Assembly: GCF_023028105.1 (NCBI RefSeq)
Contig: NZ_CP095492.1
Location: 372,001 to 436,000 of the forward strand
Length of the DNA stretch: 64,000 nucleotides
Reading direction: 5' to 3'
From: Halosolutus gelatinilyticus
GTDB lineage: Archaea > Halobacteriota > Halobacteria > Halobacteriales > Natrialbaceae
Under the pieces are notes generated by a model, which was given only the letters and a program-made list of their open reading frames with translations, ran no database searches and was not told the DNA's origin. A program made the translations under genes and the position numbers. Shown here one piece after another: positions 13,274 to 26,342 of this stretch (position 1 is its first letter; each line of letters starts with the position of its first letter).

Positions 13274-14908
13274 ATGCAGGAGAGTATCACAGAGGAGTAT
13301 CTGCCGGACGAAGAGAACGCTCCGGAGCACGTTTACTCGCTCCCGGAACTCCACTACCCGAAACGGATCAACGTCGTCGACGAACTGGTCGACCGACACA
13401 TCCGCGAGGGACGGGGCGAGAACGTCGCGATCTACTTCGAGGATCGGACGATCACGTACGAGGAACTTCGGGAGAAGGTCAACCGCATGGGGAACGCCCT
13501 CCGTGACCTCGGGATCGGCGCCGGCGACCGGGTCGTGGTACGGTTCCCGAATCGGCCGGAAGCGATCGTCTCCTGTCTGGCGGTTCAGAAGATCGGCGGG
13601 GTCGCGCTCCCGTCGATGAAACTCCTCCGGGCGAAGGAACTCGAGTACATCATCAACAACGCCGAGGCGTCGGCCGTCGTCGTCTACGACGATCTCCTCG
13701 ACGAAGTCGAGAACGCGCTGCCCGAACTCGAGACGGTCGGGGACATCGTGGTCGCCGAGCGCACCGGCGTCGACCACAGCTACCACAGCTACGACGACCT
13801 GCTCGACGACGCCGACGACGAACTCGAAGCTTACGAGACCGAGCGCGACGATATCGCGTTACTGCTCTACACGAGCGGGACGACCGGGCGACCTAAGGGT
13901 GCGATCCACACCCATCGGAACGTGCTGGCCACCGCGGACTCGTACGCGCGGTACTGCCTCGAACCGACTGAAGACGACGTCTTCGGCGGAAATCCGCCGC
14001 TTCCCTTCGCGTACGGCTACGGCGATCTCGTCACGTTCCCGCTCCGGTTTGGTGCGAGTACGAGCCTCGTCGCGGACGCCGACCCCGGCGACCTGCTGGA
14101 AGCGATCGAGGATCACGGGATCTCGATCCTCTGTTCGATCCCAACCGGATTCAATCAAATCCTCTCCCAGCACCCCGACGGTCCCGAGGAGTACGACGTC
14201 TCGTCGTTGCGACTCGGTCTCAGCGCCGGCGAGCCGCTGACGCCGACGACCTACGAGAACTTCGAGAGGGAGTACGGGATCAACCTCCTCGACGGGATTG
14301 GAACGACGGAGATGCTTCACATCTTCATCAGTCACCGCCATACCGAGAAGATCGATCCAAGCGTGACCGGCTATCCGGTCCCCGGATACGAGTGTAAGAT
14401 CGTTGATCCCGACACCGGTGAGGACCTCGAACGCGGCGAAGCGGGTCTGCTCGCGGTCCGCGGACCGACCGGGATCGCGTATTGGGACCGCCCCGAAAAG
14501 CAACTTGAGGTCAATCAGGACGGCTGGTCGATCCCAGGCGATATCTTCGTCCAGTATGAGGACGGTCGACTGGAGTACAAGTCCCGCAGCGACGATCTCA
14601 TTATCTCGAGTGGGTATAACATCCCCGGCCCAGAGGTCGAGGCGGTCATCGAAGAACACGAGTCGGTCGCTGAAGTCGCCGTCGTCGGCAGTCCCCACGA
14701 GGAGCGCGGTGAGATCGTGAAAGCGTTCGTTGTCCTCTACGACGACGTCGAGCCCGGAGAAGAACTCATCACGGAGATTCAAAACCACGTCAAGGACGTG
14801 CTCGCGCCGTACAAGTACCCACGCGAGGTCGAGTTCCGGGAAGGGCTCCCGCGAACGGAAACCGGGAAGATCCGACGAACCGAACTGCGAGAAGCGGAAC
14901 ACCAGTAG
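13274..14908 (+). CDS. AMP-dependent acyl/aryl-CoA ligase (2-aminobenzoate/benzoate-CoA ligase type)
   Basis: Activates a carboxylic acid to its CoA thioester with ATP. The adenylation core has YTSGTTGRPKGA (phosphate loop), PLPFAYGYGDLVTFPLRFGA and the GIGTTEM segment. The C-terminal hinge is SRSDDLIISSGYNI, and the catalytic Lys is in PRTETGKIRR. Length is 544 residues, normal. The central motifs resemble the aminobenzoate/benzoate ligase branch more than long-chain fatty-acid ligases. It is probably the entry step for an aromatic acid feeding the downstream pathway; with no paaK in the window it may also supply phenylacetyl-CoA (inference). Confidence 0.87.
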   Translation: MQESITEEYLPDEENAPEHVYSLPELHYPKRINVVDELVDRHIREGRGENVAIYFEDRTITYEELREKVNRMGNALRDLGIGAGDRVVVRFPNRPEAIVSCLAVQKIGGVALPSMKLLRAKELEYIINNAEASAVVVYDDLLDEVENALPELETVGDIVVAERTGVDHSYHSYDDLLDDADDELEAYETERDDIALLLYTSGTTGRPKGAIHTHRNVLATADSYARYCLEPTEDDVFGGNPPLPFAYGYGDLVTFPLRFGASTSLVADADPGDLLEAIEDHGISILCSIPTGFNQILSQHPDGPEEYDVSSLRLGLSAGEPLTPTTYENFEREYGINLLDGIGTTEMLHIFISHRHTEKIDPSVTGYPVPGYECKIVDPDTGEDLERGEAGLLAVRGPTGIAYWDRPEKQLEVNQDGWSIPGDIFVQYEDGRLEYKSRSDDLIISSGYNIPGPEVEAVIEEHESVAEVAVVGSPHEERGEIVKAFVVLYDDVEPGEELITEIQNHVKDVLAPYKYPREVEFREGLPRTETGKIRRTELREAEHQ

Positions 14909-15620: not shown

Positions 15621-15905
15621 TTAGGGGCTTTCGTCCGTCCGGATCCGGAGGTTCGAGCGCGGCTTCGCGATACAGGTCAGGACGTATCCTTCCTCTTTCT
15701 CGCTATCCGAGAGGAACATTCCTTCCGTCTGGTCGACTTCACCGTCTTCGACGAGCATGCCGCTGCAGACCCCACAGACGCCCATTCGGCACTGGTAGGG
15801 CGGGGCGAGGCCGGCTTCCTCAGCCGCTTCGAGGATCGGCTTGTCGGCCGGCACTTCGATCGTCTGTCCCTCGTCGACGAACTCGACTGTGTAACTCTCG
15901 ACCAT
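15621..15905 (-). CDS. Plant-type [2Fe-2S] ferredoxin
   Basis: 94-residue electron carrier. The cluster ligands are Cys39, Cys44, Cys47 (CRMGVCGVC) and Cys78 (LTCIA), the plant-type spacing; strands around VEFVDEGQTIEVPAD complete the beta-grasp fold. In bacteria the phenylacetyl-CoA epoxidase is fed by PaaE, a reductase fused to such a ferredoxin. No PaaE-like flavin reductase is seen here, so this stand-alone ferredoxin may feed the PaaABC oxygenase (inference). It starts four bases after the GNAT gene stop and is probably co-transcribed with it. Confidence 0.9.
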   Translation of the reverse strand: MVESYTVEFVDEGQTIEVPADKPILEAAEEAGLAPPYQCRMGVCGVCSGMLVEDGEVDQTEGMFLSDSEKEEGYVLTCIAKPRSNLRIRTDESP

Positions 15906-15908
15906 TGC

Positions 15909-16406
15909 TTACTGCTCTCGATCGATAGATCGTTCGAAGACGTGTTCGACCGGTTCGAAGCCGTTCGACTCATAGAACGCTTCCGCGGACTCGTCGCCGT
16001 GGATCGCGTCGACGCGATAGAAGTCGATGTCTTTCTCCGACTGCTCGAACCAGTCGTGAACTTCGTCCAGCAGCGCGGCGCCGACGCCGCTACCCCGGTA
16101 TTCCTCCGCGACGTAGTGGCCGTTGATGTACCCGTGGTCCTGCAGCCGGAAGATCGGGTGATTCCCCATGATGCGTGCCTCCAGGACGCCAATGAGTTCG
16201 CCCGTCCTCTCCTCTTCAGCGACGATAACGGTCCCGTATTTCGAACCGACGAGCTGATTCTCGAAGTACTGCAGCCAGCGATCGTCGGCGCTCTCCTTGT
16301 GTTCGTACCGGTCGTCGTACTCCGAGAGGTGGCTCGTGAACCCGTGCCACAGTTCCAGCAGTTCGGTACCGTCATCTAAGGTTGCCTGGCGTATCTCGTA
16401 CGTCAT
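15909..16406 (-). CDS. GNAT-family N-acetyltransferase
   Basis: 165 residues with the acetyl-CoA-binding signature VAEEYRGSGVGAALLDEV and the closing AEAFYESNGFEPV. It begins MTYEIRQATLDDG, typical of stand-alone GNAT enzymes, and is divergent from paaA. The acceptor substrate is unknown; its link to the neighbouring oxygenase genes is only positional. Confidence 0.88.
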   Translation of the reverse strand: MTYEIRQATLDDGTELLELWHGFTSHLSEYDDRYEHKESADDRWLQYFENQLVGSKYGTVIVAEEERTGELIGVLEARIMGNHPIFRLQDHGYINGHYVAEEYRGSGVGAALLDEVHDWFEQSEKDIDFYRVDAIHGDESAEAFYESNGFEPVEHVFERSIDREQ

Positions 16407-16684
16407 GCATTATCGTCAGAGATGGACTACTAAAAAATGCACTGGTCATTGAGTTCCGTTTTTTTACACTTTTCGCGGTTGGTCCGGTCCGAAGTGGCGC
16501 GGGGCAGCTGGTGAGCGATGGATACCCGGATGGAGACCGAGGGATATCGGGGGTCGCCGGGGCGCTCACGTCGGACCGATCGAACCGCGAATCCCGTCGC
16601 GCCCCAATTCGGTAGATACACGAACCGTATACAGGAAACAATTATTACCTTCGAGTAGAAAGGTTCTGTTGGAAGATTAGAGCT

Positions 16685-17605
16685 ATGCCCACCGAGAAGC
16701 GATTCAAAGAGGAGCTGCAGAACGGGCGGATGATCGAATCGACGGAAGAGATGACCGACGGGTACAAGAAGGCGCTCAAACAGATCCTGACGGTATCGGG
16801 CGATACGGAGTTGATGAGCGCGCCAGCGTACTACGAACAGTCGCTGAACGCGCCGTCGCTCGACGCCCGCGCGTCGTGTATCAGCGTCATTCAGGACGAG
16901 CTCGGCCACGGCCACATCGCCTACCGACTGCTCGAGGACTTAGGCGAGGACCGCGAGGAACTCATCTACGAGCGCGAACCCCACGAATTTCGCAATACCT
17001 ACGGGTTCGACCAGCACATCGACAACTTCGCCGAGCTCGTCACGGCCCACGGGCTGTTCGACCGCGCAGGGATCGTTCTCCTCAGCGACATCCACGAGAA
17101 CACCTCCTACGCGCCGTGGAAGCGCGCGCTGACAAAAGTGAGCAAGGAAGAGCAGTTCCACCTCCGTCACGGCGAGACGTGGATGCGGCGACTTGCGAAC
17201 AACAGCGACAAGACCAAGCAGCGTCTCCAGGAGGCCGTCGACTGGATGTTCCCGATGGGCGTCGAGTGGTTCGGCATGCCCGACGACAAGAAGAAACACG
17301 ACGACCAGCTCGAGTACCGGATCAAGGGTAAGTCCAACGACGAGCTCCGCCAGGACTGGCTGTCCCGAACGCTGCCGCTGACGAACGAACTGGAGCTTGA
17401 CGTGCCGGCCCGCTACGACGAGAAGCGCGACGAGTACGTCCTCGACTACGATATGCCGGTCGCTTTCGACGCCGACAACAAGGAGTGGCGCTTCGACGAG
17501 CCAATTTCGTGGTCCGACGTGATGGATCGCTGGCGCTCCCGCGGTCCGGCGAACGAGAAGTACATCGACATGATCCAGTCCAGTACCGTTGACATCGGGG
17601 CCTAG
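16685..17605 (+). CDS. paaA: 1,2-phenylacetyl-CoA epoxidase catalytic subunit PaaA
   Basis: Di-iron oxygenase subunit that epoxidises the aromatic ring of phenylacetyl-CoA. The 306-residue four-helix-bundle protein has metal-ligand motifs DELGH (residues 71-75) and EEQFHLRHGE (155-164), plus EEMTDGYKKAL and SAPAYYEQSLNAPS near the N-terminus as in bacterial PaaA. An AT-rich box (ATTATTA near 16641) lies about 40 bases before ATG 16685. First gene of a five-gene operon A-D-B-C-zinc ribbon. Confidence 0.93.
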   Translation: MPTEKRFKEELQNGRMIESTEEMTDGYKKALKQILTVSGDTELMSAPAYYEQSLNAPSLDARASCISVIQDELGHGHIAYRLLEDLGEDREELIYEREPHEFRNTYGFDQHIDNFAELVTAHGLFDRAGIVLLSDIHENTSYAPWKRALTKVSKEEQFHLRHGETWMRRLANNSDKTKQRLQEAVDWMFPMGVEWFGMPDDKKKHDDQLEYRIKGKSNDELRQDWLSRTLPLTNELELDVPARYDEKRDEYVLDYDMPVAFDADNKEWRFDEPISWSDVMDRWRSRGPANEKYIDMIQSSTVDIGA

Positions 17606-17607
17606 TT

Positions 17608-18003
17608 ATGTCGAGTGCACGAAAACCGGCGAATGTATCGGCGAACGCGTCACTGACCAGTGAGTTCGTCGAACGGCGCCGCGCCGATGCGACGCCGTTC
17701 GAGCGGGAGCTGTGGGATATCCTCGACGAGATTCCGGATCCGCACATCCCGGTGAGCCTCGTCGAAATGGCGATGGTTTACGACATCTGCGAAGAGGACA
17801 GCCACGTCACCGTCGAGTTGACATTCCCCTGTATGGGCTGCCCGGCCTACGACATGATCCACAACGATATCCGGAGCTGTCTGGCGGTCGTTGACGGCGT
17901 CGACGAGGTCGAAATCGACGTCGTCTGGGATCCCGTTTGGTCGAAGGACATGCTCACCGATGCCGTCCGAGAAAAGATGCGCGAAGCAGGAATCAGCCTC
18001 TAA
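17608..18003 (+). CDS. paaD: PaaD, MIP18/DUF59 domain part of phenylacetyl-CoA epoxidase maturation factor
   Basis: 131-residue MIP18-family protein thought to help assemble or insert the metal centre of the epoxidase. It has IPDPHIPVSLVEMAMVYDI and the family motif TFPCMGCPAYDM. In enteric bacteria PaaD continues into a C-terminal zinc ribbon. Here the protein stops after the DUF59 domain, and the ribbon is a separate gene at 18981. It starts three bases after the paaA stop. Confidence 0.9.
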   Translation: MSSARKPANVSANASLTSEFVERRRADATPFERELWDILDEIPDPHIPVSLVEMAMVYDICEEDSHVTVELTFPCMGCPAYDMIHNDIRSCLAVVDGVDEVEIDVVWDPVWSKDMLTDAVREKMREAGISL

Positions 18004-18008
18004 CCGCC

Positions 18009-18218
18009 ATGAAATACGAAGTATTCGCACGAATCAATCAAGGTGATGATACCAAACATATCGGTAACGTCACCGCGGAGAGCGATCGACTCGCAAAGAT
18101 GTACGCACACAACACGTTCAACGAAGAAGACTGGGACTTCCTCGCCGTCATCAACGAGGCGGATCTCCTCGAAGTGACCGGCGGCCGACCCGAACTCGAG
18201 GTGAGTGCCAGTGAGTGA
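18009..18218 (+). CDS. paaB: Phenylacetyl-CoA epoxidase subunit PaaB
   Basis: Small structural subunit bridging PaaA/PaaC. ATG 18009 gives 69 residues, starting MKYEVFARINQGDDTKHIG and containing AHNTFNEEDWDFLAVI, as in the family but shorter at the C-terminus than enterobacterial PaaB. An upstream start at 17937 overlaps paaD and is rejected. Its stop overlaps the paaC start region. Confidence 0.9.
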   Translation: MKYEVFARINQGDDTKHIGNVTAESDRLAKMYAHNTFNEEDWDFLAVINEADLLEVTGGRPELEVSASE

Positions 18219-18981
18219 CGATACCTGGCCCGAACTGGCGCTCGACTACGTACAGGCCGTCTACGACACGAAGCTCCTGCTCGGACACCGGTACGCCCAG
18301 TGGAGCCTCTCGGGTCCGTCGCTCGAGGACGACATCGGCGGTGCGAGCGCCGCACAGGAGGAAATCGGCCACGTCCGCCAGCTAGCGCGCGAACTCGAAG
18401 GACAGGGTCGAGACGCCGACTGGCTGAGCGGCGACCGCGAGCCCGATGAGTTCGCCAACGCGGCCTGTCTCGACCGCATCGACGGCGAGTGGCCGTCGTA
18501 CATCGCGTCGATCGCTCCGGCAGACCGCGCGTCGTGGTACCTGATCGACGCGATCGATCGGGACGACCTGTTCGGCCTGATCACCAAGATGGGCGAAGAC
18601 GAGTACTTCCACCTGGAGTACCACGACGCCCGGCTGGAAACGCTGGCCGAAGACGATCCGGAAACGATCCAGCGAACCCTGGAGACGACGCTCCCGCAGA
18701 CGCTCTCGCTGATCGGTCCGACCGCGTACGATGCTGACGAGGATCCGGTGTTCGGTTCCGGATTCACGGATCGGCCGGTCGCCGAGATCCGTGAGTCGTT
18801 CGCCAACCACTACCGAGAGCTGTTCGCGGAAACGGACGTCTCTCTCGAGAACGTCGACTGGAACGCTCCGGCTCTCGAGGAGTGGGACGAGACGCAACGA
18901 CGCGCCGGCGGCGGGGCAATCAGCGACGAAGACGTCCGACAGCTCCGCGGCGAAGAGAACGAGCTGTTCTTTATGAACTGA
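18205..18981 (+). CDS. paaC: Phenylacetyl-CoA epoxidase structural subunit PaaC
   Basis: Ferritin-like structural partner of PaaA, 258 residues. It has LLLGHRYAQWSLSGPSLEDDI, AAQEEIGHVRQL and MGEDEYFHLEYHDARLE. GTG start at 18205 or 18211; both overlap paaB by a few bases, so coupled translation is likely. In known complexes PaaC does not hold the working metal centre. Confidence 0.92.
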   Translation: MPVSDDTWPELALDYVQAVYDTKLLLGHRYAQWSLSGPSLEDDIGGASAAQEEIGHVRQLARELEGQGRDADWLSGDREPDEFANAACLDRIDGEWPSYIASIAPADRASWYLIDAIDRDDLFGLITKMGEDEYFHLEYHDARLETLAEDDPETIQRTLETTLPQTLSLIGPTAYDADEDPVFGSGFTDRPVAEIRESFANHYRELFAETDVSLENVDWNAPALEEWDETQRRAGGGAISDEDVRQLRGEENELFFMN

Positions 18982-19166
18982 TGATGGGAATGAACGATCG
19001 ACTCTCGAAATTGACCGTGACGTGTCCGTTCTGTGAGTCGGCGGATACGGAACGGGAGTCCGCTTTCGGCAGCGAAATTTCGAAGGCCCAGTACTACTGC
19101 AACGGCTGCAACACAGTGTTCGAACGGATCAAATACGACGGCGCGAATCCGGACACCGGTCGGTAA
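18981..19166 (+). CDS. PaaD zinc-ribbon domain encoded as a separate small protein
   Basis: 61-residue protein starting at ATG 18981 (or 18984), overlapping the paaC stop by one base. It contains CPFCESADTERESAFGSEIS, then YYCNGCNTVFERIK: two CxxC pairs forming a zinc ribbon. The pattern (C-x2-C, then a FGS segment, then C-x2-C and F-x-x-I/F-K) matches the C-terminal domain of bacterial PaaD. In this operon PaaD is therefore split into two genes separated by paaB and paaC. Confidence 0.85.
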   Translation: MMGMNDRLSKLTVTCPFCESADTERESAFGSEISKAQYYCNGCNTVFERIKYDGANPDTGR

Positions 19167-19287: not shown

Positions 19288-20130
19288 ATGGAGCTCCCAG
19301 CGTTCAGTGAGCTAGATCTGGAGTATTTCACGACGGAAATAAACAGCCACGTCGGTATCCTTCGCCTCGACCGGCCGCCGGCGAACGCACACGACATCGA
19401 GGTCTTGCTGGACCTCCAGCGCGCCATCGAGGCCGTTCGGTTCGACGAGAACGTCCGCGCCGTCCTCTTCGGCAGTTCCAACGAGAAGTTCTTCTCGACG
19501 GGCTTCGACATTCAGGTTCTGCAGGAGGAGTCCGGTCGGCAGGTCGGCTACGCGAGTCAGACGAGCAAGGAGATCATCATGAAGATGCGGACGACCGACA
19601 CTATCTTCATCGCGATGGTCAACGGTCACTGCATGGGCGGCGGCCTCGAGCTCGCGCTCGGCTGTGACTTCCGATACATCGGCGACGATGACGACTACAA
19701 CATCGGCATGCCCGAGATTCACCTCGGACTCATCGCCGGCGAGGCGGGGACGCAACTGCTACCTCGATACATCGATCGCTCCGAAGCGCTACGGATGATG
19801 CTCACCGGCGATACTCTCACGCCGGAAGAAGCGACGGAGAGGGGGATTTTCGACGAGATCCATCCGCCGGAAGAGGTCGAAGACGCCGCCTTCGAGTTCG
19901 CACAGGAGATCGCCGAGAAGCCGAGCGTCGCGGTGGGTAACAACAAGCTCGCCGTCAACGAGGGCCTCGAAATGCCGCTGTCGGACGCGCTGGCCCACGA
20001 GCGCGAACTGCAGAACCGCCTCCTCGGTTCCGACGTCGCGAAGGAGGGCGTCGACGCCTTCCTCAACGACCGCAAGCCCGACTTCGTGGGCGTCGAACTC
20101 GGCGACAAGGAACCGGGCGATGAGGAGTAA
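19288..20130 (+). CDS. Enoyl-CoA hydratase/isomerase next to the paa operon
   Basis: 280-residue crotonase. NGHCMGGGLELALGCDF holds the first catalytic Glu, and GMPEIHLGLIAGEAG the second, after a two-residue insertion (DDDD loop). The rest of the fold is normal, with an acidic tail ending in GDKEPGDEE. It could serve as the PaaF/PaaG-like step after ring epoxidation, but the sequence alone does not tell hydratase from oxepin-forming isomerase. It has its own promoter. Confidence 0.85.
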   Translation: MELPAFSELDLEYFTTEINSHVGILRLDRPPANAHDIEVLLDLQRAIEAVRFDENVRAVLFGSSNEKFFSTGFDIQVLQEESGRQVGYASQTSKEIIMKMRTTDTIFIAMVNGHCMGGGLELALGCDFRYIGDDDDYNIGMPEIHLGLIAGEAGTQLLPRYIDRSEALRMMLTGDTLTPEEATERGIFDEIHPPEEVEDAAFEFAQEIAEKPSVAVGNNKLAVNEGLEMPLSDALAHERELQNRLLGSDVAKEGVDAFLNDRKPDFVGVELGDKEPGDEE

Positions 20131-20311: not shown

Positions 20312-21268
20312 TTACGGCGTCAGCAGAAGGCCGGTCGGATACGAGTCGATCGCAGGACGGTATCGAACCGGCGTTCCGTCAAGACGTTCGACGGGACCCA
20401 GTTCGGCGAGTCGCCGCAGGTGCGCGGCCGCCTCGCCCGCGCCGAATTTCGCGTGGATACCGCGCAGTTCACCGAACAGCTCTCGCGCTACATCCCACGG
20501 CGTCCGCGCCGACGGTTCCGGTGTCGCGATCGCACGAAAGGCCGCTCTGGCCCGGTTCCGGTGGTGGCGTCGCGCTTCGTCGATCGCCGTCGGAATCTCG
20601 ATTTCCATACCGTGTCCTGGGTATCCGTCCGTCCGTATCGATTCGAAGCGATTCAGCGATGCGAGATACTGACCGAGCGAATCGTCGAGTCGCGTATCGC
20701 TCCCTCCGACGTTCGGCGTGTACGTTGGTAGCAGCAGGTCCCCGAGGAAGATCCCCTCGTCCGTCCGGAACGAGACGTGACCGACGGTGTGACCCGGCGT
20801 GTGAACGAACTCGACGTCGACGACAGTATCACCGTCTCCGTGGGGCGTCACCGCGAACGAGTCGGGTACCGGAGACGGCGTATCGGCGCTCGAGACGTCG
20901 TCCCGAACCGACTCCGGGACGCCCCATCGCTCGAGAACCCGTCGATCGCGACGACATCGCCGCTCGCGAGCGGCCGCGTAGTCGCCGATCAGCAGCGTAT
21001 CATCGGCGTGAGCGTGTATCGAGGCGTCGGCGCGATCCGCGAGACGGGACGCGAGGCCGGCGTGGTCGATGTGCCAGTGGGTGAGAAGGACGTGATCCAC
21101 GTCCGTTATCGCGATCCCGGCGTCCGCGATCCCGTCCCGAAGCGCAGTCCACGCAGTATCGGACGGCGGACCTGGATCGATGACGACGCCGCGGGCCGGA
21201 AGCAGGTACGCACAGTTCGTTCCCTCCGGCGATCCGCCGCCGACGGAAACCCTGACGACGTCACTCAC
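20312..21268 (-). CDS. Metallo-beta-lactamase-fold hydrolase
   Basis: 318-residue hydrolase with the metal motif THWHIDHAGL (HxHxDH), a second His in HTPGHTVGHVSF and Asp in GIFLGDLLLPTY. A C-terminal helical domain of about 90 residues (RRHHRNRARAAFRAI onward) resembles LACTB2-like or thioesterase-type family members. Its ATG overlaps the end of the UbiD-like gene upstream by 8 bases, so it belongs to that operon. Likely a thioester or ester hydrolase acting on the decarboxylase pathway product; inference from context. Confidence 0.85.
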   Translation of the reverse strand: MSDVVRVSVGGGSPEGTNCAYLLPARGVVIDPGPPSDTAWTALRDGIADAGIAITDVDHVLLTHWHIDHAGLASRLADRADASIHAHADDTLLIGDYAAARERRCRRDRRVLERWGVPESVRDDVSSADTPSPVPDSFAVTPHGDGDTVVDVEFVHTPGHTVGHVSFRTDEGIFLGDLLLPTYTPNVGGSDTRLDDSLGQYLASLNRFESIRTDGYPGHGMEIEIPTAIDEARRHHRNRARAAFRAIATPEPSARTPWDVARELFGELRGIHAKFGAGEAAAHLRRLAELGPVERLDGTPVRYRPAIDSYPTGLLLTP

Positions 21269-22688
21269 GGACGTCGCTCACTCCGCGCTCGTCGAGGAGC
21301 GCGTCGAGCCCTAGTTCCTCCCACCTGTCGGCGACCGACTCCAGCACGTTCTCGGAAAAGGACGTCTCGAAATTCACGCGAGGTGCGATGTACTCTTCGT
21401 CCCACCGCGGATCCCACGTCGCATTGATGTAGAGCCGGGAGCCGTTCGATCCGTCGGAACGGTATAGCGGCGCCGTCGCGCTCGAGGCGTTCGGTTCGCT
21501 GAAGATCCAGTCGTTGGCGGGGTGGGCCTTGACCCACATGTCGTCGATCGCTCGAGCCAGGTTCGACGGATCAGCCTGCTCGTCAAGTATGAGTACCTTG
21601 TCGAACAGGTCCGAGAACGAGAAGAGCGTATTAGCGAGCTGCCACTCGAATCCGGCGTACAGGATTTCGCTCGAGACGATACAGAAGCCAAGTTGCCCTT
21701 CGACCGGCAACTGAATCCACTCGACGGGCGAGACGCCCCAGTAGTTGTTCACTCGACGGAAGAGCTTCGCCGTCTCGACAAGACACATCAGGTGCAGATC
21801 GTCGGTTAAGGGCTCGCCGAGCGGAGTAAACGGAACGATCGGTTCCTCACGGAGTGCGATCGCCTCGGCGTCGACATCGACGGTCGTCGTCTCGCACGCC
21901 AGTTCCCACGCTGCTTTCGGCTTGGTTTCGTCGATCACTGCCTCCGATTCGACGGGACTCATCCGGCCGTCGATGCGTACTTCGGCGTCCGTCGGAACGA
22001 TCCGCGAATCGATCGTCGTCACAGGGACGTCGGTCAATCCCGCTGCCAATTCCGGGACGGTCGGCGTCGTCTGGCCCTGTGTCCACCCCTGAAGCGCCGC
22101 GATGAGAGCGGCGGCCGAGACACCGAAAACGACGCTTACGTCGGCCGACGGCGAACACCACTTGGTGACCGCCTCGGGGACAGCGAGTCGTAACGTCCGG
22201 CTCCGCTGTACTCGACCCCTGATCGGAGCCCAGGTCGTGACGCCGTTGGCCTCCACGACGAGCAGACCCATGGAGACGAGCGGCGTCCCGTTACCGTCCG
22301 TCGGCAGCCCGAGGGAGTACATATCGATCCCCTCACGGACGGTTGCGGCCGGTTTGTCAGTGACGCGGTCGTCGACCGCGGACGACTGCCACCGAGCCAG
22401 GCGCTCGATCAGTTCGATATACGATCGTTCCGCGCCGAGATCGAGGGCCTGCGTAATGCGTTGCCACGGTTGTTGATCGGCGCTGGCGAACTGGTCGGCG
22501 CCGCCGTAAACGCCGCTCACCGGGCGGACCGCACCGGACGTGTTCTCGAAGAGCGTGACGGGACAGTTATGGCGGATCGCCTCGCTCGCGACCTCGGCGA
22601 CTGCACCGTCCCAGTGGACGTGTTCCGTAACGGAAACCAGGTCGTCGGTCTCCCGAAGTCGCTCGAGATGTCGTCGTAGCGCCGTCAT
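21261..22688 (-). CDS. UbiD-family protein lacking the canonical active-site signature
   Basis: 475 residues with the UbiD fold, recognisable from HLERLRETDDLVSVTEHV, PVTLFENTSG and QPWQRITQAL. It diverges exactly at the prenylated-FMN catalytic region. The expected EGEI segment is DGRM, and the EGPFGDYFGY block of active UbiD enzymes is replaced by an unrelated stretch (DETKPKAAWELACETTT). It overlaps the canonical UbiD gene by 4 bases. A non-catalytic or regulatory subunit of a two-UbiD complex, comparable to PpcA/PpcB of phenylphosphate carboxylase, is a reasonable inference. Confidence 0.8.
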   Translation of the reverse strand: MTALRRHLERLRETDDLVSVTEHVHWDGAVAEVASEAIRHNCPVTLFENTSGAVRPVSGVYGGADQFASADQQPWQRITQALDLGAERSYIELIERLARWQSSAVDDRVTDKPAATVREGIDMYSLGLPTDGNGTPLVSMGLLVVEANGVTTWAPIRGRVQRSRTLRLAVPEAVTKWCSPSADVSVVFGVSAAALIAALQGWTQGQTTPTVPELAAGLTDVPVTTIDSRIVPTDAEVRIDGRMSPVESEAVIDETKPKAAWELACETTTVDVDAEAIALREEPIVPFTPLGEPLTDDLHLMCLVETAKLFRRVNNYWGVSPVEWIQLPVEGQLGFCIVSSEILYAGFEWQLANTLFSFSDLFDKVLILDEQADPSNLARAIDDMWVKAHPANDWIFSEPNASSATAPLYRSDGSNGSRLYINATWDPRWDEEYIAPRVNFETSFSENVLESVADRWEELGLDALLDERGVSDVRE

Positions 22689-24181
22689 TGCGCACCCTCC
22701 CCGGGATCGACGAACGACAGCGTGCTCGTGTCGACGCCGGCCCGTTCGAGTATCTTTTGCGCCCGATATCTGCGCTCGACGTCGCCGGTCGGCTGCGATT
22801 TCCGCGCAGACCTATCGCTGGTCGCATCGATGTACGCCTTCGCCGTCTTCGCTTTCGACGTTCCGGTCTGGATGTCGCCCTTTTCGGTCGGCGTTTGATA
22901 GATGTTCAGCGGAACTTTCGGCATCGTTTCGACCCCGAACTGGTGAAAGTCGGTATCCGGATCCGCGTATAACGCGAGCGCCTCGAGTACCTCTCGTTGG
23001 TCGAGCGGATTGACGTCCGCGTCGACGAATATAAAGAAGTCGACGTGGAGCATCCCCCACGTCGTAAAGATGAAATTCGCCATATCGTGGAGATAGCTGG
23101 GATTGGTCTTCTCGGTCGAGATCGTATAGATCGTTCGCGGCGTCGACTTCCACGGGGCACAGCACTCGACGTCGAACTGGGCGGTTCGTAGTCCGAGCGT
23201 CGCATCCGGGCCGACGCAACCGACCTCCATCGAACTGGTCGTGTTCTCCGAATGCCCGACGCCGGTACCTTCGACGCAGAACGGGAGTATCGGATCCGTC
23301 TGGTGCGTGATTCCTGTCACTCGAAAGAGGGGCATCGATCTTCTGGGACCGTGCATATAGCCGAAATAGTCGCCGAAGGGGCCTTCGTCGCGGCGCTCGT
23401 TCGGAAGGATCTCGCCCTCGATGACGAGTTCGGCTGTCGCCGGAACGAGGAGATCGTTCGTTTCACACGGAACGAGTTCAACCGGCTCCCGTTTCAACCC
23501 GCCCGCGTATTCGGCCTCGTTCCGACCCGTCGGAATCCACATTACGGACGTGTACCGGACCGCTGGTTCGACGCCGACGGCGATCGCGACGGGCATCGGT
23601 TCGTTTCGCTCTTCGTACTTGTAGTAGTAGAGGTTCGGTGTTTGCTCGCCCGCTAACAGGAGGACGCTACTCGTTTCGCTGTCGTGGATCATCGTTCGAT
23701 GATTCGACCAGTCGACCCAGTCGGAATCGGGATCCGGTGCGATAAGCGTGTGGACGTTCGAATAGCGCCCGCCGTCGCCCGCGTGAATGTACGGCCACGG
23801 GAAGTCAAGGAGATCGATCTCGTCACCTGTCCGGATTTCTTCTTTACAGGGTGCATCGTCCGCGGAAACCGTCACCGGTTCGATCGGATCCTTCAGTCGA
23901 TCGATCACCGATTCGTAGTATTCACTGTACGAGAGATCCGGTGGCAATCCCAGCCCGAGTGCGATTCGATCCCACGGTCTGCGCTGGGTTCCTCGATACG
24001 GGTCGCCGACGAGTTGCGCCGATTCGACGCTCTCAAACAGCGGAACGGCGCTGTCTTCGACGTTCAACAGCATCGTGACGGCACTGGCCTCGAGATTCCA
24101 CGAAACGGGCTCGGAGATCCGATGGAGATCGCCTCTCGTCTCGAGCGTCTGAAGGTACTGTCGGAAGCTGTGGATCGTCAT
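22685..24181 (-). CDS. UbiD-family decarboxylase, canonical
   Basis: Prenylated-FMN dependent (de)carboxylase of 498 residues from ATG 24181 (MTIHSFRQYL); longer upstream starts overlap the previous gene and are rejected. Active-site elements are complete: Arg in DWSNHRTMIH, Glu in VIEGEILP, and EGPFGDYFGYMHGPR. ATG overlaps the preceding gene's stop by four bases. No UbiX flavin prenyltransferase is in the window, so the cofactor must come from elsewhere. An aromatic or unsaturated acid is the likely substrate. Confidence 0.9.
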   Translation of the reverse strand: MTIHSFRQYLQTLETRGDLHRISEPVSWNLEASAVTMLLNVEDSAVPLFESVESAQLVGDPYRGTQRRPWDRIALGLGLPPDLSYSEYYESVIDRLKDPIEPVTVSADDAPCKEEIRTGDEIDLLDFPWPYIHAGDGGRYSNVHTLIAPDPDSDWVDWSNHRTMIHDSETSSVLLLAGEQTPNLYYYKYEERNEPMPVAIAVGVEPAVRYTSVMWIPTGRNEAEYAGGLKREPVELVPCETNDLLVPATAELVIEGEILPNERRDEGPFGDYFGYMHGPRRSMPLFRVTGITHQTDPILPFCVEGTGVGHSENTTSSMEVGCVGPDATLGLRTAQFDVECCAPWKSTPRTIYTISTEKTNPSYLHDMANFIFTTWGMLHVDFFIFVDADVNPLDQREVLEALALYADPDTDFHQFGVETMPKVPLNIYQTPTEKGDIQTGTSKAKTAKAYIDATSDRSARKSQPTGDVERRYRAQKILERAGVDTSTLSFVDPGEGAQ

Positions 24182-24675
24182 TTGTGATTGTGCAACTCGT
24201 TTGCCAGTTCGTCGCGCTCGGACTGCACTTTGAGGTCGATGTACTCGCTCACGAGTTCCGGATACGTATCGGACAGGTAGTCGAGCATGATCGTTCGGCT
24301 CGCCTCGGAGACGGACTCGTGCTCTCCTTTCTCCGTGAGATACTGCAGGAGCGTCTTCACTTCCTTCGACCTGGTGTTGATCACGGTCGACTGTTCCTCG
24401 ACCTCGGCCATCGTCGACTCGAGCAGATCGGTATCGATCGAATCGCCGCTGTCCGTCTCGAGGACGTCGAGATACCACTCTTCTTTGGTGTTCTCGTGCG
24501 GCCCTTTGACGACGGTCAGCGTGTCCGGATCGGTGAGATTGTCCGGATCTCGATCGATCTTGGCCCGGATGTCGAAGATCTCTTTCGTTTCTTCGTCGCT
24601 CACTTGTAACTGGATTTCCTCCCCCTCTGGATCGTCGGGTAGGTTACTTTCCGACGTAACGTATTTCCCTGCCAT
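24178..24675 (-). CDS. Small acidic protein leading the UbiD operon, family unknown
   Basis: 165 residues, very acidic, with no recognised domain. The first half looks like beta strands (IQLQVSDEETKEIFDIRAKI, TLTVVKG). The second half is helical and charged (EVEEQSTVINTRSKEVKTLLQ, SVSEASRTIMLDYLSDTYPEL). No signal peptide or membrane segment. It starts the operon small protein-UbiD-UbiD-like-hydrolase and overlaps ubiD by ATGA, so tight stoichiometry with the decarboxylase is suggested. An AT-rich box (AAATAAAAA, 24705-24713) upstream may be its promoter. It may be an accessory subunit, but no function can be assigned. Confidence 0.8.
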   Translation of the reverse strand: MAGKYVTSESNLPDDPEGEEIQLQVSDEETKEIFDIRAKIDRDPDNLTDPDTLTVVKGPHENTKEEWYLDVLETDSGDSIDTDLLESTMAEVEEQSTVINTRSKEVKTLLQYLTEKGEHESVSEASRTIMLDYLSDTYPELVSEYIDLKVQSERDELANELHNHK

Positions 24676-24881
24676 GCCAGTTGTCGACTAGTCGCTCGTC
24701 CTCCAAATAAAAACCCTATCTAAGTTAACTAACATATTCGCGCGTTTTGAGGGAAGTCTCGTTCCGACAGAACGACGCTGATCGAATCCCGTTTCGGATC
24801 GCCTCGTCCGACTGTATCTATCGCCTCCGCCGTGTCCGTCGAGTAGTAACAGAGATGGGGCCAGAGTGGCTACCTGGACGT

Positions 24882-25488
24882 ATGCTCAGCGCCGATCAGA
24901 AGGCGCGCTATCTCGAGAATATCGAAACCGGAACGACGAGAAGAGTGTGGCGAAATCACCGTTTCGGCGGACGAGATCGTCGCCTTTGCGGAGCAATTCG
25001 ATCCGCTCGAGTTTCACACCGATCCGGAGGCCGCGTCGGAGAGTCGATACGGCGGCCTCATCGCTAGCGGCTACCGCACGCTCTCCCTCTCGGTTCGGCT
25101 CGTCGTCGAGGAAGTTCGAAGCAAACGGGCCGTCATCGCCGGTCTCGGAATCGACGACGTCCGCTGGCACGAACCGGTTCGGCCGAGCGAGACGCTCTCC
25201 GTGACGACGACGGTTCTCGATAGTCGCCCGTCCGAGAGCGATCCGACCACCGGCGTCGTCCGCGAACGGATCTCGGTGACCAACCGGACGGAAACCGAGG
25301 TACTCTCACTCGAGAATTACGAGCTAGTCGAGCGGCGAAATTCGGCGCGCTGGAACGGGCTGACCGACGTTACCTGGTTGCGGTTTACGGGACGAGTCGA
25401 TCCAGCTACGTCGATCCACTACCCGCGATGTGGGATTCCGTTACAAGTGCTGGCGATCGTACCGACTCGTACTCGCGGCTTGCGTTGA
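24882..25488 (+). pseudogene. MaoC-family hydratase with a frameshift and lost stop
   Basis: From ATG 24882 the frame reads MLSADQKARYLENIETGTT, the normal MaoC start. The rest of the domain is in the next frame from about 24940: ECGEITVSADEIVAFAEQF, DPLEFHTDPEAA, YGGLIASGYRTLSL, then VLDSRPSESDPTTGVVRERI and LENYELVERR near 25340. So a single indel lies near 24935-24945. After ELVERR the frame runs about 50 unlike residues to 25488, suggesting the original stop is also gone. A sequencing error could explain the frameshift, but not the extra tail. Confidence 0.75.
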
Positions 25489-25595: not shown

Positions 25596-26342
25596 TCACC
25601 GTTCCAAGAACGCGTTCACGCCGTCTTCGTGTTCCGGCGTGCCGTACGCGATCGATTGGGTGAGAAGTTCGTGGTCGAGCGCCTCCCGCCAGTACCGACC
25701 CATGTTTTCGTGAATCGCGCGTTTTGTCAGCCCGAGCGTCGTCGTTGGACGCTGTCGGAGCGTCTCGAGGAGGTCGTCGACGGTCGCCTCGAGGTCGCCG
25801 TCCGGGACGGCCTCGTTTACGAGGCCGATCTCCGCGGCTTCAGCCGCGGAGACGAATTCGGCGGTCAGCGCTAGCCGTTTGGCGGTGCGAAGGCCGATGA
25901 GTCGCGGAAGTAAGAACGTCCCCCCGGTATCCGGGACGAGTCCGACTCGCGCGAACGCACAGCTAAACGACGCTGAGTCGGCGGCGTATGCGAAGTCGCT
26001 GACGGCCGTTACCGCGAGTCCGGCACCGACCGCATCGCCGTTTACTTTCGCGACGATCGGTACTTCGGACGTGAGGGCCGTTTCGACGACTCGGCCGAGC
26101 GTCTCGCTCGTCCGGTCGAACGATTCCTTCGGGGTCTCGTCGCGCTCGGCCATCGCCTCGAGGTCGCCACCAGCGCTGAACGCGTCGCCCTCGCCGGTGA
26201 GAACGATCGCGTCGTGCCCGTCGGCGTCGGCGCCGTCGATGGCGTCAGCTAACGATTCGGCCGCCTCGGCCGTGAATGCGTTCAGCGAGTCGGGTCGATC
26301 GAACGTGACCGTTCGCACGCCGTTCTCGTCGTCGACGATCAT
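25596..26342 (-). CDS. Crotonase-family protein, isomerase-like
   Basis: 248-residue crotonase with FSAGGDLEAM and NGDAVGAGLAVTAVSD. Both glutamate positions of classical hydratases are replaced (Ala in GLAVT, non-Glu in SCAFARVGL), and the pattern FARVGLVPDTGGTFLLPRL is that of delta-isomerases such as PaaG, whose catalytic residue is an Asp. Start ATG 26342 (MIVDDENGVRTV) fits the family. It is convergent with the broken MaoC gene. Isomerisation of a double bond in a CoA ester is the favoured role. Confidence 0.82.
   Translation of the reverse strand: MIVDDENGVRTVTFDRPDSLNAFTAEAAESLADAIDGADADGHDAIVLTGEGDAFSAGGDLEAMAERDETPKESFDRTSETLGRVVETALTSEVPIVAKVNGDAVGAGLAVTAVSDFAYAADSASFSCAFARVGLVPDTGGTFLLPRLIGLRTAKRLALTAEFVSAAEAAEIGLVNEAVPDGDLEATVDDLLETLRQRPTTTLGLTKRAIHENMGRYWREALDHELLTQSIAYGTPEHEDGVNAFLER

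Follow-up and report, generated by a model that had tools for sequence, protein, structure and literature searches.

A conserved haloarchaeal gene unit with a canonical UbiD, a degenerate UbiD and a small acidic protein, found in genomes without recognizable UbiX

The locus

We analyzed a 64,000-nucleotide stretch of the genome of the haloarchaeon Halosolutus gelatinilyticus (positions 372,001 to 436,000 of NZ_CP095492.1; hereafter, the window). Within it, adjacent genes encode a small acidic protein, a canonical UbiD, and a degenerate paralog of UbiD (Table 1). These three genes form a unit that is conserved across many haloarchaea, and none of the 85 surveyed genomes with the unit has a recognizable copy of UbiX, the flavin prenyltransferase that is associated with UbiD enzymes.

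An earlier note, made from the DNA sequence alone, had described these genes and a downstream gene for a metallo-beta-lactamase (MBL) fold hydrolase as a four-gene operon. All four open reading frames are present as described, on the minus strand and with short overlaps. The ATGA overlap between the genes for the small protein and the canonical UbiD is real, and there is another between the canonical UbiD and the paralog. The listed reading frame for the canonical UbiD (22685-24478) opens with GTG; starting from the ATG at 24181 instead gives a protein of 498 amino acids (aa). The small protein is indeed acidic (computed isoelectric point 4.18, with 26% Asp plus Glu), but only in a relative sense, since both UbiDs have computed isoelectric points of 4.4-4.6 in this halophile. 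The unit probably has a single promoter, which would lie in the leader.

Table 1. Features of the window, with the unit and its immediate neighbors first
Feature	Positions	Strand	Basis
Acidic protein of 165 aa, encoded first in the unit	24178..24675	-	Found in the same 85/391 genomes as the degenerate UbiD
Canonical UbiD of 498 aa, putative catalytic subunit	22685..24181	-	Pfam rift domain, 226 bits
Degenerate paralog of UbiD (475 aa), putative non-catalytic partner	21261..22688	-	UbiD fold, catalytic residues lost
MBL-fold metallo-hydrolase, 318 aa, frequent but non-obligatory neighbor	20312..21268	-	Family match
Leader with T-rich TATA-like box GGGTTTTTATTTGG, common to the closest relatives	24676..24720	-	By eye
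Enoyl-CoA hydratase/isomerase, PaaG-like	25596..26342	-	Family match
Enoyl-CoA hydratase/isomerase family	19288..20130	+	Family match
PaaC-like subunit	18205..18981	+	Family match
Small PaaB-like protein	18009..18218	+	Translation; Haloterrigena turkmenica has it annotated in the corresponding place
PaaD-like protein / metal-sulfur cluster assembly factor	17608..18003	+	Family match
PaaA-like oxygenase subunit	16685..17605	+	140 bits, below the PaaA cutoff of 280
2Fe-2S ferredoxin-like protein	15621..15905	-	Translation; annotated in Haloterrigena turkmenica
AMP-forming CoA ligase, benzoate-CoA ligase-like	13274..14908	+	366 bits vs. a cutoff of 375

Conservation of the three-gene unit

We surveyed 391 haloarchaeal genomes and 14 control genomes, and we compared 28 related loci that were identified by protein search. 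(In the search for the UbiD pair, bacteria were represented by the control genomes only.) Because the surveyed genomes are related, and are not phylogenetically independent, Fisher values for this data set are descriptive only.

In all 28 of the haloarchaeal loci, the genes for the small protein, the canonical UbiD, and the degenerate UbiD are in that order and on one strand. Across the survey, the degenerate UbiD is present in 85 of the 391 haloarchaeal genomes, at 87 places, and at 86 of those places it follows immediately after a canonical UbiD, with both on one strand. (The remaining pair appears to wrap around the ends of a contig.) If we count the wrapped case, then all 87 copies adjoin a canonical UbiD; the earlier note had considered that the paralog might be found alone in many genomes, and it is not. 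The small protein is found in the identical 85 genomes, and its gene is directly upstream in 86 of the 87 units. Furthermore, pairwise distances among the three proteins are correlated (r = 0.91-0.93). An arrangement that recurs in 28/28 relatives and in 85/391 genomes is beyond chance.

The MBL gene, which the earlier note had counted as a member, is found in 22 of the 28 related loci. Several lineages lack it or have it elsewhere, and in Haloarcula-type loci it lies upstream of the unit. Since this gene is not always present and changes place, we rejected it as a core member and view it as a pathway neighbor, which leaves a unit of three genes rather than four.

The unit is found on many plasmids (16 plasmid records), and in the H. 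gelatinilyticus assembly (98.8% complete, 4 contigs) it sits on a separate 562-kb contig, which suggests that it has spread on megaplasmids. In Haloterrigena turkmenica, the unit is HTUR_RS20415-20425 on pHTUR01.

Residues of the two UbiD proteins

We aligned each of the two UbiDs with 27 relatives and numbered the residues as in Fdc1 from A. niger. The canonical UbiD contains the UbiD_N domain, the rift domain (PF01977; 226 bits vs. a cutoff of 23), and the UbiD_C domain. Its nearest sequences in the PDB are Fdc1-type enzymes and PA0254/HudA. Both the rift domain (78 of 202 positions invariant) and the C-terminal domain (71 of 150) are conserved. When aligned to Fdc1, all 27 canonical relatives retain R173, E233, E277, and an Asp at 282, so the Glu-Arg-Glu/Asp catalytic network (E277, R173, and D282) is intact. 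The Asn-His-Glu metal/phosphate site is altered: E233 is kept, while position 191 is Gln, and the Asn at position 168 is replaced by Asp, or by Ser in 4 relatives. Positions 168 and 191 vary in known UbiDs as well, and the Asn-His-Glu site is not strictly family-defining.

In the paralog, Pfam identifies UbiD_N and UbiD_C only, with no match to the rift domain. An AlphaFold2 model (predicted template modeling score, or pTM, of 0.80, with low confidence for the last ~100 residues) indicates that the paralog keeps the full UbiD fold: Foldseek matches the model to full-length UbiD structures, and the best match is PA0254/HudA (E about 1e-25). Across the 27 relatives of the paralog, E233, E277, and E282 are not conserved (these columns are variable), and the segment that contains H191 is deleted. 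The earlier note was thus right that the paralog lacks the catalytic signature, and aligning it properly, to Fdc1, does not restore a cofactor site. The note had relied in part on the contrast between EGEI in the canonical protein and DGRM in the paralog. This contrast is real, but we rejected it as the decisive motif: it is not the catalytic signature and is not at a catalytic position in Fdc1 numbering. The metal ligand Glu233 falls in the stretch N-E-A-x-[YF]-A-G, and the catalytic acids are in EGPFGD.

Within the paralog, 53 of 175 positions in the C-terminal domain are invariant, versus a rift domain with just 12 invariant positions out of 175. This shift of constraint towards the C-terminal domain would fit a partner that is kept for assembly or for shaping its neighbor's active site. 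Given the lost catalytic residues and the diverged rift domain, the paralog might instead be a decaying, pseudogene-like duplicate without any role. We consider this to be extremely improbable: the paralog adjoins every canonical UbiD of the clade in 85 genomes, nearly a third of its C-terminal positions are invariant, and its split from the canonical UbiD is older than the haloarchaea.

Evidence for this age comes from a genome in the same phylum but outside the class (G621). One of its loci (L055) encodes a canonical UbiD, a second UbiD, a 112-aa protein, and a PaaK-like CoA ligase. In a phylogenetic tree, the first UbiD of L055 joins the haloarchaeal canonical proteins (support of 100/98), and the second UbiD joins the degenerate proteins (100/99, with a warning of long branches at that join). 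Because both UbiDs of L055 join their respective haloarchaeal counterparts with 100% bootstrap, the tree indicates that the division of labor between the two UbiDs is ancient and predates the haloarchaea. The 112-aa protein has a weak match (8.7 bits) to the profile of the small protein. In the second UbiD, the metal ligands and E282 are replaced (by V, S, I, and G), while R173 and E277 are kept. This half-degenerate protein, within L055 7462-10667, represents an intermediate state of the degenerate subunit.

The small acidic protein

The small protein has no significant match in PDB, Pfam, NCBIfam, or PHROGs. (In a few plasmids, NCBI labels it "ubiD operon protein.") An AlphaFold2 model (mean predicted local distance difference test score of 80, pTM of 0.48) has a five-stranded N-terminal beta domain, with an invariant GPHE motif, and then C-terminal helices that weakly resemble a ribbon-helix-helix. 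Foldseek with this model, whose pTM is just 0.48, found nothing below E = 0.001. The protein is likely to be a small subunit or an assembly factor.

Another explanation is that the small protein is a ribbon-helix-helix regulator of the operon, and that the enzyme consists of the two UbiDs only. The C-terminal part does have a SVSEA.R-type motif with two helices, and there is a weak Foldseek match to SegB (probability of 0.84-0.89, template modeling score of about 0.6). We think that this is unlikely. The beta domain is conserved at least as well as the ribbon-helix-helix-like part, and the protein is highly acidic and lacks a significant database match. Also, a search of 29 upstream regions revealed no common palindrome that might be an operator; the only shared element was the TATA-like box in close relatives.

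Absence of UbiX

UbiX has been described as an obligate requirement that is common to all UbiDs (PMC8379154), and a single conserved UbiX accompanies UbiDs as the only flavin prenyltransferase that is associated with them (PMC10865409). We identified UbiX as proteins that score above the cutoff of TIGR00421. This search found UbiX in 0 of the 85 genomes with the unit. It found UbiX in 32 of the 391 haloarchaeal genomes, and all 32 of these encode a UbiD but none has the unit. Together, the 85 genomes with the unit and the 32 genomes with UbiX account for all 117 of the UbiD-bearing genomes among the 391. Both states are present within three genera (g2, g30, and g43), so this is not due to one deep split. 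The 14 controls gave the expected results, with nine that have UbiD and nine above the UbiX cutoff; Haloferax volcanii gave no match to PF01977 in this control search.

Where UbiX does occur in haloarchaea, 27 of the 32 genes are within 5 kb of a UbiD. H. gelatinilyticus itself encodes just one protein with a UbiD rift domain, and its sole flavoprotein from PF02441 is a 405-aa CoaBC. Similarly, in 28 unit-bearing relatives, PF02441 identifies CoaBC-type proteins only, except in Halobellus rufus (G017), a genome additional to the 117 above, which holds both systems (L053 and contig C44): the unit and a UbiX-size protein. In H. rufus, the gene for UbiX and a second UbiD, which is unpaired, lie about 6 kb apart on one 43-kb contig. 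UbiX thus tracks the unpaired UbiDs.

Could UbiX be present but missed, with the enzyme being an ordinary UbiX-dependent UbiD? Some of the assemblies are drafts. However, the 85 genomes without UbiX are mostly 95-100% complete, some of them in 1-5 contigs, and the same search recovers UbiX in 32 of 32 other UbiD-bearing haloarchaea, with scores of 177-227 bits. The lone UbiX among the 28 relatives accompanies another UbiD. We therefore view a missed UbiX as very unlikely. The absence of UbiX is the most striking feature of this system; it would be unexpected to a specialist, and the earlier note had not mentioned it. We did not find any description of a haloarchaeal UbiD system without UbiX in the open-access papers that we searched.

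Genes near the unit

In the window, in Haloterrigena turkmenica, and in Haloarcula, the unit adjoins a set of oxygenase genes similar to PaaA/B/C/D, along with a 2Fe-2S protein, enoyl-CoA hydratases, and an acyl-CoA (acyl-coenzyme A) ligase, which is of the benzoate type in the window. CoA-transferases and a branched-chain-type ATP-binding cassette transporter are nearby in the window and in H. turkmenica, and an acyl-CoA dehydrogenase is nearby in many relatives. The PaaA/B/C/D-like proteins and the ferredoxin (15621-19000) score well below the cutoffs for phenylacetyl-CoA epoxidase. Judging from these scores, the set is possibly an epoxidase for another aryl-CoA. A reading frame for a MaoC-like dehydratase (24883-25330, plus strand) is broken by a frameshift near 24935, which could be a real loss or a sequencing error; the gene is intact at the corresponding place in Natrinema salsiterrestre (L001:5334-5804) and in H. 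turkmenica.

In a second clade (Natrinema DC36 and Natronolimnohabitans), the unit is near genes for a CoA ligase, an acyl-CoA dehydrogenase, and an acyl-CoA carboxylase, as well as MaoC in DC36, and there are no Paa genes within the stretch that we read. For example, one locus of this clade (L063 10002-20509) encodes the unit, a CoA ligase, an acyl-CoA dehydrogenase, a two-subunit acyl-CoA carboxylase, and MaoC. This is a methylcrotonyl/geranyl-type layout without aromatic genes.

The theme that is common to all of these loci, including L055, is the UbiD unit together with an acyl-CoA ligase. This would fit either carboxylation followed by ligation to CoA, as in the degradation of naphthalene (PMC12016498), or a diacid that is first decarboxylated and then ligated to CoA.

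A proposed heteromeric enzyme and its cofactor

We think it fairly probable that the three genes encode one heteromeric (de)carboxylase of the UbiD family, which works in cells that lack UbiX. The strict co-occurrence of the genes and the loss of catalytic residues from one UbiD give good support to the earlier note's idea of a UbiD-type (de)carboxylase that has multiple subunits, one of them a UbiD without catalytic function. We infer a physical complex in which the canonical UbiD would be the catalytic subunit. The degenerate UbiD would be its pseudoenzyme partner, probably binding via the conserved C-terminal (oligomerization) domain, and the small acidic protein would be a third subunit or else a factor for assembly or cofactor loading. 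The complex might convert an acid, either unsaturated or aromatic, to its decarboxylated form or the reverse, alongside the acyl-CoA ligase, and its product would feed into a catabolic route of CoA thioesters. Because the cells lack UbiX, the complex would use either a flavin that is not prenylated by UbiX or prenylated flavin mononucleotide (prFMN) from another source.

Several observations weigh against this proposal. First, co-inheritance is also expected of enzymes for separate steps in one pathway. Second, one genome (G241; L065 and L066) has an intact UbiD pair without an adjacent gene for the small protein. A full-length copy of that gene stands alone about 0.9 Mb away, which suggests that the small protein is able to function in trans. 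Third, the conserved Glu-Arg-Asp network argues that chemistry of the prFMN type is still performed. Fourth, the genome with L055 encodes three proteins of UbiX size, along with several further UbiDs, so independence from UbiX may be a haloarchaeal development on top of an older two-UbiD enzyme.

For the cofactor, we considered two explanations. The first is that prFMN is used as usual and is either made by an unrecognized, non-homologous flavin prenyltransferase or salvaged, so that only the supply route is new. The E277-R173-D282 network is invariant, and a study of Fdc1 describes this network as required for prFMN maturation and catalysis (PMC5818171). The L055 pair, which occurs alongside UbiX, suggests a prFMN-using ancestor. 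On the other hand, no candidate gene for the prenyltransferase is known, and the three-gene unit is the only neighborhood that is conserved in all lineages. Overall, this explanation is a strong candidate that falls slightly short of an even chance.

The second explanation is that the complex runs on unmodified flavin mononucleotide (FMN) or on some other cofactor, and that the changes in the metal/phosphate shell (N168 to Asp or Ser, Q190 to Glu, and H191 to Gln) reflect this. Position 168 is Asn in 21 of 23 UbiDs from genomes with UbiX and in L055, but in 0 of the 27 UbiDs from the unit. The changes at 168 and 190 set the haloarchaeal canonical UbiDs apart from L055. Also, it has been reported for Desulfatiglans anilini that two UbiD-like subunits function with only FMN, although that organism has a ubiX-like gene (PMC7500099). 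However, PA0254/HudA has Ser at position 168 and is nevertheless prFMN-dependent (PMC7976604), so the change at N168 is only a hint of a different cofactor. The change from H191 to Gln is also found in L055, and we rejected the loss of this His as proof that prFMN was lost, as the residue is Asp in 9 of the 23 UbiDs from genomes with UbiX. Finally, FMN is not known to support such chemistry in other UbiDs. We view the use of unmodified FMN as possible but somewhat doubtful.

More broadly, the unit might define a class of UbiDs outside the rule that links UbiD to UbiX and prFMN: a heteromeric complex of an active and an inactive UbiD, with a small partner, that uses either a non-prenylated flavin or an undiscovered haloarchaeal flavin prenyltransferase. 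We consider the arguments for and against such a class to be evenly balanced. In any case, an ancient and widespread UbiD pair in 85 genomes without UbiX is a clear exception to the UbiX requirement. Whether a UbiD can function without prFMN from UbiX is a question that can be tested directly in culturable strains such as H. turkmenica. A genetically fixed pair of a catalytic UbiD and a pseudoenzyme could also be the reason that certain UbiD carboxylases require two UbiD-like subunits.

Comparison with known systems

Among relatives with solved structures, Fdc1 and PA0254/HudA are closest to the canonical subunit, and they share their fold with the degenerate subunit as well. Unlike the proposed complex, they are active with one kind of subunit, rely on UbiX/Pad1, and have an intact Asn/Ser-His-Glu metal site.

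Other UbiD systems include small proteins. The vanillate decarboxylase VdcCD has a UbiD and a small activating subunit, but it has no second UbiD and depends on UbiX, and VdcD binds zinc via four Cys (PMC8379154), whereas the 165-aa acidic protein has no Cys. LpdD (PMC10865409) and PhdC (PMC13040415) are also small and help UbiD to obtain or mature prFMN. Their action follows that of UbiX, which the genomes with the unit lack, and we saw no sequence match to them. LpdD has a Pba3/4-like fold with a metal site, and our model of the small protein, with a pTM of only 0.48, has no significant Foldseek match.

The naphthalene carboxylase complex of culture N47 contains several UbiD-like subunits, and the acid is then ligated to CoA, as may also occur with the unit. 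In contrast to the unit, the N47 complex comes from an anaerobic sulfate reducer, has a mass of about 750 kDa, includes four UbiD-like subunits, and is proposed to use prFMN (PMC12016498; we compared it by its description only).

Phenylphosphate carboxylase from Thauera aromatica (PpcA/B/C/D) has two UbiD-like subunits along with a small subunit, and it belongs to a CoA-dependent aromatic route. The earlier note had compared the two UbiDs to PpcA and PpcB. We rejected membership in these families because both proteins score far below the cutoffs of the equivalog models for the alpha and beta subunits (TIGR02723 and TIGR02724): the canonical UbiD scores 169 bits vs. a cutoff of 565 and 109 bits vs. 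a cutoff of 469, and the degenerate UbiD scores 30 bits vs. 469. Also unlike phenylphosphate carboxylase, the unit has no UbiX, and we saw no phosphatase or phenylphosphate synthase in the annotated neighborhoods. Overall, the earlier interpretation was wrong about membership but right in outline: by analogy, the unit resembles phenylphosphate carboxylase in its architecture, while lying outside of its family models.

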